From Promethearchaeota archaeon (GTDB lineage: Archaea; Asgardarchaeota; Lokiarchaeia; Sigyniarchaeales; SOKP01), in NCBI GenBank assembly GCA_016840165.1, contig JAEOSU010000027.1, forward strand, positions 1-64,000: a stretch of DNA of 64,000 nt, written 5' to 3'. Under the pieces are notes generated by a model, which made no database searches, was not told where the DNA came from, and saw nothing but the letters and a program-made list of their open reading frames with translations. Positions 7,301 to 46,265 of the stretch are shown here, in pieces. The translations under genes were made by a program, and so were the position numbers. Within the stretch, counting starts at the first letter, position 1. Each line of letters begins with the position of its first letter.

Positions 7301-7453
7301 CTGACACCAAACTCAAATCAAAATTAGTAAATAGTTGAATGTGAAAATATATCATAGTTTTTAGATTTTTCTATAATATGGCAAAAATTCTCAGATACTA
7401 AGATCAATTATTTACAGCGCGAACGTGAATAAAAATATTTAAAATTCAGAATT

Positions 7454-8566
7454 TCAAGAAACTGGTTCCCATAAGATCCCAAGATTATCAGCATAATTTT
7501 TTACCTCGTGCATTTCTTGCATACTTGGGGTTCGATTTATTTCTTTAAAATTTGAAGCTTTATACATTGGGCGATATTGAGCCATGATATTAACCACACA
7601 GTTCGGTACTTCTTTGCTTATATAATCTAATATAGGTTTACTACAGCACTCAATATGGTTAGGCATTACTAAATGACGCACAATTATTTCTCCACTCCCT
7701 TCATCATGGATTCTCTTAAGATTTCGTGTTATTATATCATAATAGTTTTTAACACCTGAATATTTTTCGGCACATTCATTATTTCCATACTTAAAATCGG
7801 GCAACCAAAAATCCATTAGATCGATAAGAAGCGAAAGTGATTTTGAAGTTAGATAGAAATTTGAATTCCATAGTTGACAGATATTTGATTTCTGATGATT
7901 TAAGCTTCCTAAAATGGTATGAATGTTTGGTATGGGATCCCCACCCACATAGTTTATATTAAATGCTCCTTTTTCTGCTAACCGATCAGCTATATTTGCT
8001 AATTGAATGCAATCAACTTTCTTAGCAATATCACCGATTTTTCGTTTCCCTTTCCATGCTTGAGAGATGTCATAATTTTGACAAAAAACACAACCAAAAT
8101 TACATCCTTGGAAAAATATGGTACCACTGGGTACCAAAACGCTTTCTTCTCCCATGTGAAGAAATGCGGATGATACAAAGGAATCACTTGTTAAATAGCA
8201 ATAACCTTTTTGCTTTTCAATACGATTTATACCGCATTTCCTTTCACAGAAAATACATTTTTCTAGATATTTATTTGCGATAGCTGCTGCTAAATCTAAA
8301 TAGTTAGACTTTTGAATTTTTCGAGAGTCTATTTCTTCTTGATCTAAAGTTAAAAGTTCTCTAAATTCATCACTTTTATCCTCTAATAACCCTTCTAATT
8401 GTTGCTCTGAGAATGATTCGTTAAATTCAGCAAAGATTGTTTTTGCTATAAGGAATCGTGCTACTTTATGTCCTTCCATAATACCCTTATATCTTGAGAA
8501 TCGATTAGCAATCTCTTGAATATTCCAGACTGACTTCGAATCAGGACGTAATAATCTAAATACCAT
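7454..8566 (-). CDS. Radical SAM enzyme, PflA-like (COG1313 type)
   Basis: A 370-residue protein. The radical SAM cluster motif is CNFGCVFC (Cys155, Cys159, Cys162), followed by QNYDIS typical of the PflA-like group. A second cysteine set lies just before it (CIFCERKC at 104-111 and GYC at 121-123) and could bind another Fe-S cluster or zinc. The glycine-rich SAM-contact segment NYVGGDPIPN follows. Related proteins are called pyruvate formate-lyase activase-like, but the true substrate is unknown. It lies 17 nt downstream of the GIFT-domain gene on the same strand, so they are probably co-transcribed. Confidence 0.8.
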   Translation of the reverse strand: MVFRLLRPDSKSVWNIQEIANRFSRYKGIMEGHKVARFLIAKTIFAEFNESFSEQQLEGLLEDKSDEFRELLTLDQEEIDSRKIQKSNYLDLAAAIANKYLEKCIFCERKCGINRIEKQKGYCYLTSDSFVSSAFLHMGEESVLVPSGTIFFQGCNFGCVFCQNYDISQAWKGKRKIGDIAKKVDCIQLANIADRLAEKGAFNINYVGGDPIPNIHTILGSLNHQKSNICQLWNSNFYLTSKSLSLLIDLMDFWLPDFKYGNNECAEKYSGVKNYYDIITRNLKRIHDEGSGEIIVRHLVMPNHIECCSKPILDYISKEVPNCVVNIMAQYRPMYKASNFKEINRTPSMQEMHEVKNYADNLGILWEPVS

Positions 8567-38400: not shown

Positions 38401-38772
38401 ATGGATTCATTGCAAGTTGAAGGAATTGATAAAGAATTAGCTAAGTTTGAGAGTATTGGGGGAATCTTGGGTTTAGCAGTCGTTGATGATAATGGTCTCA
38501 CTATTCTTTCACGGTTACCACGTGCAATTGAAGAGCGTAAATTTGGAGCAATGGCTGCTACGATTTTAGGTGCAATGGAAACTGCAATAATCCCCTTTGG
38601 CGAGGATTTAATTAATTTAACAATCGAGTTTGAAGAGTCTCAATTAATTATTATGAGTTCAGAGAATAAAATTATACTAGTCGTATTAATGGAACTTGAA
38701 ATTGATTTAGGATTTATGCTATTAGAGATAGAAGAAATATTACGCAATATTAAAAATATTTTAAGAGGTTAA
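38401..38772 (+). CDS. Roadblock/LC7-domain protein
   Basis: A 123-residue single-domain protein. The fold pattern is clear: helix ELAKFESIGGILGLAVVDDNG, the strand LTILSRL, helix FGAMAATILGAMETAI, two strands and a closing helix. Such proteins regulate small GTPases, as MglB does, and are very numerous in Asgard genomes. No GTPase gene is in the window. It is followed after 7 nt by the E1-like gene, so they are co-transcribed. No SD is visible before the ATG. Confidence 0.85.
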   Translation: MDSLQVEGIDKELAKFESIGGILGLAVVDDNGLTILSRLPRAIEERKFGAMAATILGAMETAIIPFGEDLINLTIEFEESQLIIMSSENKIILVVLMELEIDLGFMLLEIEEILRNIKNILRG

Positions 38773-38779
38773 AAATAAT

Positions 38780-39520
38780 ATGTTGACCAAGGAAGAACGA
38801 GAAAGATATAACAGACAAATTATCTCTCCTTCAATAGGAGAAGAGGGCCAAGAAAAATTAGGAAAAATAAGAGTACTACAAATTGGGGCAGGAGGTTTAG
38901 GTTCTCCTTTCGCTTTGTATATAGTTGCTGCAGGAATTAAAGAATTAACGATTATTGATAACGATGTTATCTCTCTTTCGAATTTACAACGTCAAATTCT
39001 TTATAATGAAAGCCAAATAGGCATGGCTAAAGTTGTTGCGGCTAAGAAACTGCTGGAAAGTAGAAATTCTAATGTAAAGATTAATATTCATCAAGATTAC
39101 ATCAATGAGGCCTCCATTGAAAAATATGCGAGCGAAAAGAACTATGATTTTATCGTTGATTGTAGTGATAATTTCAAAACTAAATTTTTAGTTAATCGAA
39201 CCGCAATTAAATATAATATGAAATGTGTCATAGCAGGGATTAAAGATTTCTTTGGTCAAATAATGACCATAGACCCAAAAGTCTCTGCCTGCTATCAATG
39301 TGTTTTTAATGAACCTTTGGAATCTCAGAATAGCTTAAAACCATTACCTGTGATTGGAGTCACTCCAGGAGTTTTAGGAACATTAGAAGCATTAGAGGTT
39401 ATTAAGACGACTTTAGGTTTACCAAATCTCGAGAATAAGCTATTAATGGTCAATTTACTTAACTTAATGTTTGACGTAATAGATTTAGTAAAAAATGAGA
39501 AGTGTATTTGCTCAAAATAA
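38780..39520 (+). CDS. ThiF/MoeB/E1-like adenylating enzyme
   Basis: A 246-residue member of the E1-like family. It has RYNRQIISPSIGEEGQEKL, the nucleotide loop GAGGLGSPFALYI, DNDVISLSNLQRQ, and DCSDNFKTKFLVN. Zinc ligands are ACYQC and the C-terminal CIC pair. It adenylates the C-terminal glycine of a ubiquitin-like or sulfur-carrier protein. No dedicated cysteine domain as in eukaryotic E1 is present. A ubiquitin-like protein with a GG-A end is encoded about 5 kb downstream. Roadblock is encoded just upstream, a rare partner. Confidence 0.85.
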   Translation: MLTKEERERYNRQIISPSIGEEGQEKLGKIRVLQIGAGGLGSPFALYIVAAGIKELTIIDNDVISLSNLQRQILYNESQIGMAKVVAAKKLLESRNSNVKINIHQDYINEASIEKYASEKNYDFIVDCSDNFKTKFLVNRTAIKYNMKCVIAGIKDFFGQIMTIDPKVSACYQCVFNEPLESQNSLKPLPVIGVTPGVLGTLEALEVIKTTLGLPNLENKLLMVNLLNLMFDVIDLVKNEKCICSK

Positions 39521-44358: not shown

Positions 44359-44613
44359 TTAGGCTCCACCAGCTTGGGTTGCCATTACGGTTATTACATC
44401 TTTTTTAGGATGGATACCGACCTTAGCGAACTTTAGATTGTCGGGTAATACTTTTCCTTTGAAAATAAATTGGATCGCTAAAATTGGATTAAGTTTATAC
44501 TCTCTTTGAACAGTTTTCTTAATTTCTGCTATAGATTGATTAGGATCTACCTCAATAAGCTTAATTGCTTGATCGGGTGGAACACCAGTAAGTCTAAATC
44601 GATATTGGGTAAT
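44359..44613 (-). CDS. Ubiquitin-like protein ending in Gly-Gly-Ala
   Basis: A beta-grasp protein of 84 residues counted from an ATT at 44613. The core runs VDPNQSIAEIKKTVQREYKL, then IQFIFKGKVLPDNLKF, then VGIHPKKDVITVM, which aligns with ubiquitin IENVKAKIQ, LIFAGKQLEDG and IQKESTLHLVL. The chain ends TQAGGA, so one residue after Gly-Gly would need removal before activation. No ATG, GTG or TTG is in frame. AAGGTG at 44621-44626 is 7 nt before ATT, which supports an AUU start. Alternatively, losing one A from the A6 run (44615-44620) would give GTG-AAA-AAG-ATT. The E1-like gene is about 5 kb away. Confidence 0.8.
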   Translation of the reverse strand: MTQYRFRLTGVPPDQAIKLIEVDPNQSIAEIKKTVQREYKLNPILAIQFIFKGKVLPDNLKFAKVGIHPKKDVITVMATQAGGA

Positions 44614-44768
44614 CTTTTTTCACCTTGAGTTTTTTTATAATTTGATAATTTTATCTTAATTTAATAATTAGTCTTGTAATTAAGATATAAGGTAAACGGT
44701 CTAACAGAGTATACTTTAGTATGAGTATTATGCTCATATATAAAGAAAAATTGAGATTCTCACTAATT

Positions 44769-44954
44769 TTAAAATCGAAACGGTTCTGGGGGCGGAGTAG
44801 GTGGACCAGGTGGATAAGGTCCGGGAGATGGACCTGGTCTCGATGGACCACGTCCTATTCGGTTTTCGATTTGTGAAATTCTTGCTTCTATTTTGCCTAG
44901 TCTCTCTTCTATTCTTTTTATTCTTTCAATTATATTTGGAGTGTCTATTCCCAT
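44769..44954 (-). CDS. Miniprotein with coiled coil and proline-rich tail
   Basis: A 61-residue frame. Residues 7-33 are a short coiled coil (IERIKRIEERLGKIEARISQ). The tail is rich in Pro and Gly, with PPGPPTPPPEPF at the end. This resembles ligands of SH3, WW or profilin-like domains. It lies 155 nt upstream of the ubiquitin-like gene on the same strand. There are no other supporting features, so it could be a chance frame. The regular heptads and the biased tail favour a real gene. Confidence 0.5.
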   Translation of the reverse strand: MGIDTPNIIERIKRIEERLGKIEARISQIENRIGRGPSRPGPSPGPYPPGPPTPPPEPFRF

Positions 44955-45173: not shown

Positions 45174-46265
45174 ATGGAAAGCTGGAATATTTCGAAAAAA
45201 TTGAAAAATGACATGTTAAAGAAATCTGCTAACATTGAAGATAATAGCCGACGAATATTATTTATCTTAAGAAATTTAGGGCCGCAGAGGTTTACCAATT
45301 TAGTAAAATATTCAAATTTAAGCCGATCCACGGTTTCTAAATATCTTAAGCTTCATAGTAAGAATAATAACGTCGAACAGAAATTAATTACTGATAAAGA
45401 TACCAATAATCAGTATCAAGGTTATGTCATTACCGAAAAAGGAATAGAGAAATTGGGCGAGGGTCCATTAAGACTAAAAGATGAGCTTTTAATTATCAAT
45501 GAATTAAAGGAAAATGTACGTAGACTTGAGGAACTAATAGCCTTTTTCAAAAAAATTAATTTGGAAGACCCTTTTATCATCCATATCATAAGAATAGTAT
45601 CGAAAATAGGAGATAATTTTTTTGAACTACAGCAAGATAGAGATTTGTTTTTATCATTGTTTTACATCTTTTATAATTCAATTCTCGGTCAGGGTGCATT
45701 AGCAAATAGATATTGGCGTTTTTATAAAGATGGAAGTCAAAAATTTAAAGGATATAAATTAAATATTGACCAGTTCTGTAAACTTTTTGAAGTGAGAAAG
45801 GAAGCAATAAATTATTTAGCTCGATTAAAATTAATTCAAAGCGATTTTGGATTTTATTTAATTAAACGTGAGAATAGTGACTTCTATTTTCATGAAGAGG
45901 ATCTACTCGGCACTACAACTTTAAGACTTATTAGGGATAGGTTGTTTGATGAGATAATAAATTTACAGGAAGGTATATCAGAAGCAATATTTAACTTAGA
46001 CATCATGTCTGAAGAAATAGCGGAACAATTAAGTGAAATGGGTCTAATCTGGGGAGCAATTAAACACCAATTTCAGTTATTATTAGTAAATCTAATAGTA
46101 AAAATAGCGATTGATATGGGTTTTTTAGATATAGAACGAGAAAAACTAATGAATGCAGTTGCTCAATCGAAAATGCTCACTCTCTCTAATGAAGGTAAAA
46201 TGCTGCAGGAATCAATAGAAGAGGGGAAAATTTTACTTTCAAATTTAAATATTCTTACAACGTAA
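45174..46265 (+). CDS. Winged-helix DNA-binding protein, unknown
   Basis: A 363-residue protein. An N-terminal winged helix (about residues 25-90) shows RILFILRNLGPQRFTNLVK, YSNLSRSTVSKYLKLH as the recognition helix and GYVITEKGIEKLG as the wing. The rest is helical with several hydrophobic segments (for example SLFYIFYNSILGQGALANRY). A second small winged helix may lie near FCKLFEVRKEAINYLARLKL. It is probably a transcription regulator with a sensory/dimer part. The target is unknown. The gene begins 219 nt after the miniprotein and 31 nt before the DUF362 gene. Confidence 0.65.
   Translation: MESWNISKKLKNDMLKKSANIEDNSRRILFILRNLGPQRFTNLVKYSNLSRSTVSKYLKLHSKNNNVEQKLITDKDTNNQYQGYVITEKGIEKLGEGPLRLKDELLIINELKENVRRLEELIAFFKKINLEDPFIIHIIRIVSKIGDNFFELQQDRDLFLSLFYIFYNSILGQGALANRYWRFYKDGSQKFKGYKLNIDQFCKLFEVRKEAINYLARLKLIQSDFGFYLIKRENSDFYFHEEDLLGTTTLRLIRDRLFDEIINLQEGISEAIFNLDIMSEEIAEQLSEMGLIWGAIKHQFQLLLVNLIVKIAIDMGFLDIEREKLMNAVAQSKMLTLSNEGKMLQESIEEGKILLSNLNILTT

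Follow-up and report, generated by a model that had tools for sequence, protein, structure and literature searches.

Lokiarchaea are relatives of the ancestor of eukaryotes. In bacteria, infC starts at AUU, a case of translational control; archaea are not known to have IF3. The ubiquitins described from Caldiarchaeum (CsUb; PMC6043591) and from Asgard archaea (Asgard Ub-ESCRT; PMC9192718) have a ubiquitin fold, a GG end, a C-terminal tail, and an archaeal E1, which they have in common with the gene described here. In Caldiarchaeum, a C-terminal tail of this kind is removed by Rpn11 (PMC6043591). Non-AUG start codons act as translational control in the case of the GTC start of Streptomyces sigR (PMC5472188) and in chloroplasts (PMC9845219), and a review of archaeal start sites treats AUG, GUG, and UUG only (PMC7531240). 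We found no report of AUU, AUC, or AUA starts in Asgard archaea in the open-access papers searched.

A ubiquitin-family gene in a lokiarchaeal contig

The window, a 64,000-nucleotide stretch (positions 1 to 64,000 of contig JAEOSU010000027.1, assembly GCA_016840165.1), carries a ubiquitin-like gene (hereafter Ub) with the following features.

44359..44613, minus: ubiquitin-like gene, 84 aa plus TAA stop (Pfam, AlphaFold2, Foldseek, relatives)
44611..44613, minus: predicted ATT start codon; the column holds ATG, ATT, ACG, or TTG in relatives (upstream alignment, E1 tree)
44620..44622, minus: TGA stop in the same frame, two codons ahead of the ATT (sequence)
44620..44625, minus: Shine-Dalgarno (SD) sequence AGGTGA, 6 nt from ATT, complementary to the 16S 3′ end GATCACCTCCT
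44365..44370, minus: diglycine codons GGT GGA (sequence, homologue alignment)
44362..44364, minus: one-residue tail, Ala (GCC), which varies or is missing in relatives

The frame (44613-44359, minus) comprises 84 codons, beginning ITQYRFRLTG and ending TVMATQAGGA before the stop, and its complete translation is ITQYRFRLTGVPPDQAIKLIEVDPNQSIAEIKKTVQREYKLNPILAIQFIFKGKVLPDNLKFAKVGIHPKKDVITVMATQAGGA. A Pfam search assigned it to the ubiquitin family PF00240 at 40.4 bits and E 2.5e-10, against a cut-off of 25.4, and among PDB entries it matched polyubiquitin chains. No match to MoaD, ThiS, or Urm1 was detected in Pfam up to E=1. The frame is a ubiquitin-family gene, with homology far above chance. 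An AlphaFold2 model of the protein reached a pLDDT of 91 and was aligned by Foldseek to 1UBQ with TM 0.77/0.84 and an rmsd of 2.2, with further matches to SUMO, NEDD8, and the Caldiarchaeum ubiquitin (CsUb 6FNN, 0.75). The modelled protein has the beta-grasp fold of the ubiquitin family, as an earlier interpretation of these letters (the sequence-only reading) had proposed.

A single copy of Ub was found in the genome of the window, and the gene was present in 46 of 58 relatives and in 65 of the 83 genomes of the class, all genomes compared being MAGs. The 70 loci were distributed across Lokiarchaeota, Helarchaeota, and Sigynarchaeota, bearing out the Asgard setting that had been suggested. 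Across 61 loci, median amino acid identity to the window Ub was 94%, with 50% identity at third codon positions, and the genes beside Ub in the same loci were mostly 40-75% identical where conserved. Because approximately 94% identity is kept despite saturated third positions, Ub is, as estimated from these alignments, under extreme purifying selection, a constraint that amounts to ubiquitin-like hyperconservation.

Alignment of the predicted proteins shows that the ATQAGG end is conserved, with GG invariant in 20-21 aligned homologues. One residue followed GG at 40 loci, none at 21, two at 4, and a longer stretch at 3, with varied identity, so that about one third of the homologues terminate exactly at GG. 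Because both the length and the identity of the tail vary and 21 loci end at GG, the one-residue cap is, judging from the predicted C-termini, tolerated and dispensable and not a signature. Of the earlier description of a GG-ended modifier with a one-residue cap, the GG end thus stood and the cap as a defining trait did not.

Several variants of the gene were observed among the relatives. Two Ub genes from different genera are interrupted between the same two codons (DVI|TVMATQAGG) by a 30-nt insert (L075:8223-8252 in G068; L085 ~190-219 in G003), which in one of them includes a TAG in frame. The predicted fold of the L075 insert is a long hairpin (z between about -1.3 and -2.2 for different lengths); for the L085 insert, folding was no better than for shuffled sequence. 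These inserts are possibly mini introns excised by the tRNA splicing endonuclease. Second, 5′-truncated copies, in which the N-terminal third is replaced by unrelated sequence, were found at L097 ~7425-7604 and L101 ~8001-8156, each in a genome with a complete copy as well. Ub-like domains with 32-57% identity also lie inside open frames of ~390-4200 aa in G026, G084, G024, and G048, which suggests ubiquitin-like domain fusions.

In the window, a small ORF (44769-44954, minus), whose start resembles a coiled coil and whose end is rich in proline, lies between Ub and a divergent winged-helix gene at 45174; it matched no Pfam family above cut-off. Elsewhere in the same genome, a separate cluster on contig C58 (L106:7787-14264) encodes E1, E2, and JAMM proteins together with three other ubiquitin-like domains. 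Of these ubiquitin-like proteins, two are soluble and the third is probably anchored in a membrane; a possible membrane zinc protein belongs to the cluster as well. Both soluble modifiers end in a conserved PASTAG, alone or followed by a tail, where Ub has GG.

Position of the start codon

The earliest in-frame ATG, GTG, or TTG of Ub encodes Met77, leaving the frame without a usable canonical start. The earlier statement that no standard start exists accordingly holds for these three codons and fails in its wider sense, since ATT is listed as a permitted rare start in NCBI table 11. The sequence-only reading was right that the gene is easily missed by gene callers.

When the upstream regions of all loci were aligned, most had ATG in the start column; ~15 distinct sequences had ATT, 4 had ACG, and 3 had TTG. 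Many loci had an in-frame stop a few codons upstream of the start, as in the window, where the TGA at 44622-44620 was confirmed, and an AGGTG- or GTGAT-type SD sequence was present; the 16S rRNA of the same genome ends in GGCTGGATCACCTCCT. On a tree of the E1-like protein described below, the start class of Ub changes at least 11 times. Because the same column holds ATG, ATT, ACG, and TTG with these repeated changes, and because the SD spacing and the upstream stops agree with it, comparison of the relatives shows a predicted start of Ub translation at the ATT at 44613, so that the proposal of an AUU start with a correctly placed SD is upheld.

The window also contains GTG AAA AAA followed by GAT, that is, an A6 run directly after AAGGTG and upstream of the ATT, and the sequence-only reading had raised the idea that this run hides a frameshift from a GTG start. 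Ub would then begin at GTG 44623, with an assembly error or a programmed frameshift in the run. Against this, the ~15 distinct upstream sequences keep ATT in the same column with different bases upstream of it, often with an in-frame TGA or TAA close before, and other relatives have ATG at this very codon; the comparison excludes the frameshift, and we assign this reading a negligible probability. Splicing that joins an upstream AUG to the Ub frame through a BHB intron at the start is likewise very improbable. These genomes have many tRNA introns, and two Ub genes carry the intron-like insert, but at the start itself both the near-cognate codon and its distance from the SD are conserved, and there is no sign of an intron boundary.

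Linkage to an E1-like gene

The window also carries the following two genes.

38401..38772, plus: Roadblock/LC7 protein, encoded directly before the E1-like gene (Pfam)
38780..39520, plus: MoeB/ThiF/UbaA-type E1-like adenylyltransferase, probable partner of Ub; ATG here, ATT/ATC/ATA in many relatives

The matches of the E1-like protein to MoeB/UbaA models fall below equivalog cut-offs. It lies 5 kb from Ub in the window, and the two genes are no more than 17 kb apart in 29 of the 32 genomes that have both on one contig, representing seven genera and two families. This proximity supports a functional pair as a prediction from gene order, with the limit that nadA and other genes are also retained near Ub and residual synteny may explain part of the linkage.

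Among 62 genomes of the class, the E1-like gene starts with ATT in 21, ATC in 6, ATA in 2, and ATG in 22, and the rest have GTG, TTG, or a shifted start. In some g1 genomes an extra ATG or GTG lies 2-3 codons before the ATT and overlaps the SD, which makes the start there uncertain. An in-frame TAA in the E1-like gene of G040 and G044 proved only apparent, falling outside the aligned protein. An independent-pairs test with few informative pairs detected no correlated change of start class between Ub and the E1-like gene on the tree. We rejected a start switch shared by the pair because, among these few pairs, their start classes do not change together.

Near-cognate starts in other genes

As a control in the same loci, we examined 184 neighbouring genes of 13 families, all of which began with a canonical codon close to where the start was expected; the sole exception among the neighbour families was the ThiF/E1-like family, in which 5 of 10 genes lacked one. 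We then scanned 442 kb of the genome of the window, 400 kb of G075, and another 400 kb of G076 (~1.24 Mb) after removing antisense shadow ORFs. An ATH (ATT, ATC, or ATA) start was counted when it had an SD of at least 4 nt and when any canonical start of the gene was preceded by conserved sequence. SD-backed ATH starts were identified in 13 of 296 well-supported conserved genes (5/131 in the genome of the window, 5/103 in G075, and 3/62 in G076), a rough ~4% in a sample that is not random and includes the Ub regions. The families concerned were Ub, the E1-like protein, MptA (GTP cyclohydrolase), threonine synthase, a pterin-binding protein, D-aminoacyl-tRNA deacylase, an ABC ATPase, an alpha/beta hydrolase, and one without a Pfam match. 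As the E1-like gene, mptA, and thrC also start with ATH, we rejected the idea that AUU is a peculiarity of Ub. Comparison among the genomes shows predicted ATH starts in several unrelated genes of this lokiarchaeal family, a recurrence that the sequence-only reading did not anticipate.

The start of mptA was ATH in nearly all examined genomes of family f1, across several genera; ATG was found within f1 only in G034, G035, and G084, and also in other families. Position 2 of the MptA profile TIGR00294 aligns at residue 9 of the frame, in which ATT is the third residue and canonical in-frame starts begin only at about residue 62. This alignment provides independent proof, at the level of the predicted protein, that MptA begins near the ATH codon. 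In thrC, ATT was found in 18 of 30 genes. For the cluster-encoded ubiquitin-like protein, 22 of 23 genes have retained ATG, and the ATH trait therefore appears gene-specific.

SD sequences were stronger at ATH starts than at ATG genes. An SD of at least 4 nt preceded 100% of the ATH starts of Ub, the E1-like gene, and mptA and 90% of those of thrC, compared with 41% of ATG genes and 17% of random sequence, and an SD of at least 5 nt preceded 51-90% of ATH starts, 11% of ATG genes, and 3% of random sequence; these percentages count related sequences more than once. The initiator tRNA of the genome of the window (L398, G000:C49 ~11031) has the anticodon CAT, so that a changed initiator anticodon was rejected as the cause of AUU starts. 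Its gene apparently contains two introns, the first beside the anticodon and the second within the T arm, and ARAGORN without its intron setting missed this interrupted gene.

A possible mechanism and its meaning

Ub is most likely a ubiquitin/SAMP-like modifier, with predicted AUU initiation through the normal initiator tRNA and a strong SD. The simplest mechanism would be decoding of AUU by the CAU initiator Met-tRNA despite a mismatch at the third position, which would be tolerated because the strong SD AGGTGA positions the ribosome; Ub would then still begin with Met. The tail of 0-2 residues would be removed by the JAMM protease, whose gene is present in the same genome, or by a general peptidase, a step that genes ending at GG would not need. 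The diglycine terminus would then be adenylated by the MoeB/UbaA-type E1, leading to protein attachment or a role as a sulphur carrier. As a whole, we consider it very probable that Ub is a functional modifier with a real ATT start and that ATH starts serve several genes; activation of the GG end by the E1 is a putative part of this reading. The least certain step is that the weak start sets a low or adjustable rate of Ub synthesis, for which we put the chances a little short of even. Initiation at AUU may have a regulatory role.

Neutral permissiveness, in which a strong SD simply lets lokiarchaeal ribosomes accept AUU, AUC, and AUA and the starts drift with no regulatory meaning, is a serious contender to which we give somewhat less than even credence. 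It agrees with the frequent flips of the Ub start, ACG and TTG included, with the ordinary initiator tRNA, and with the uncorrelated starts of Ub and E1. However, the canonical starts of the neighbouring genes and the retained ATG of the cluster-encoded protein make the trait look gene-specific, and a single transition would turn an ATA start of mptA into ATG, yet such reversion is almost absent, which suggests selection for a weak start in that gene. We tentatively propose, with distinctly limited confidence, that one family of Lokiarchaeia keeps a gene-specific set of AUH starts by selection against AUG, as a translation-fidelity regulon acting through aIF1/SD initiation stringency. Its candidate members, held just as tentatively, would be the Ub modifier, its E1, MptA, threonine synthase, D-aminoacyl-tRNA deacylase, and others. 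If true, close archaeal relatives of eukaryotes would possess a translation-fidelity regulon that is invisible to gene callers.

Standard gene finders would miss or shorten genes started by ATT, ATC, or ATA. Ub is likely absent from annotation where it starts with ATT or ACG, which would bias surveys of the origin of eukaryotic ubiquitin, and the AUH share in the sampled conserved genes implies that lokiarchaeal N-termini and gene content are probably systematically misannotated. The persistence of AUH in mptA across several genera, with AUG almost never found, poses the question of start-codon selection in archaea whose initiator tRNA is otherwise normal.

Comparison with known systems

Like the Asgard and Caldiarchaeum systems, the genome of the window also carries an E1/E2/JAMM cluster. 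Unlike in CsUb-type systems, the Ub of the window is unlinked to that cluster, lies near a MoeB/UbaA-type E1, and has a putative AUU start; after GG, CsUb has 9 residues and Ub of the window type 0-2. With SAMP/Urm1 and UbaA/MoeB-type E1 systems it has in common a GG-ended beta-grasp protein and a stand-alone adenylyltransferase nearby, whereas its sequence matches ubiquitin in Pfam and not MoaD, ThiS, or Urm1. As in sigR, chloroplasts, and infC, a near-cognate start is conserved in specific genes, and Ub, E1, and mptA each have a near-cognate codon at a conserved start column without a canonical start. In contrast to those three cases, the putative starts described here are archaeal, occur in unrelated genes (Ub, E1, mptA, thrC, and others) of many genomes, are accompanied by a strong SD, and use ATT, ATC, and ATA interchangeably.
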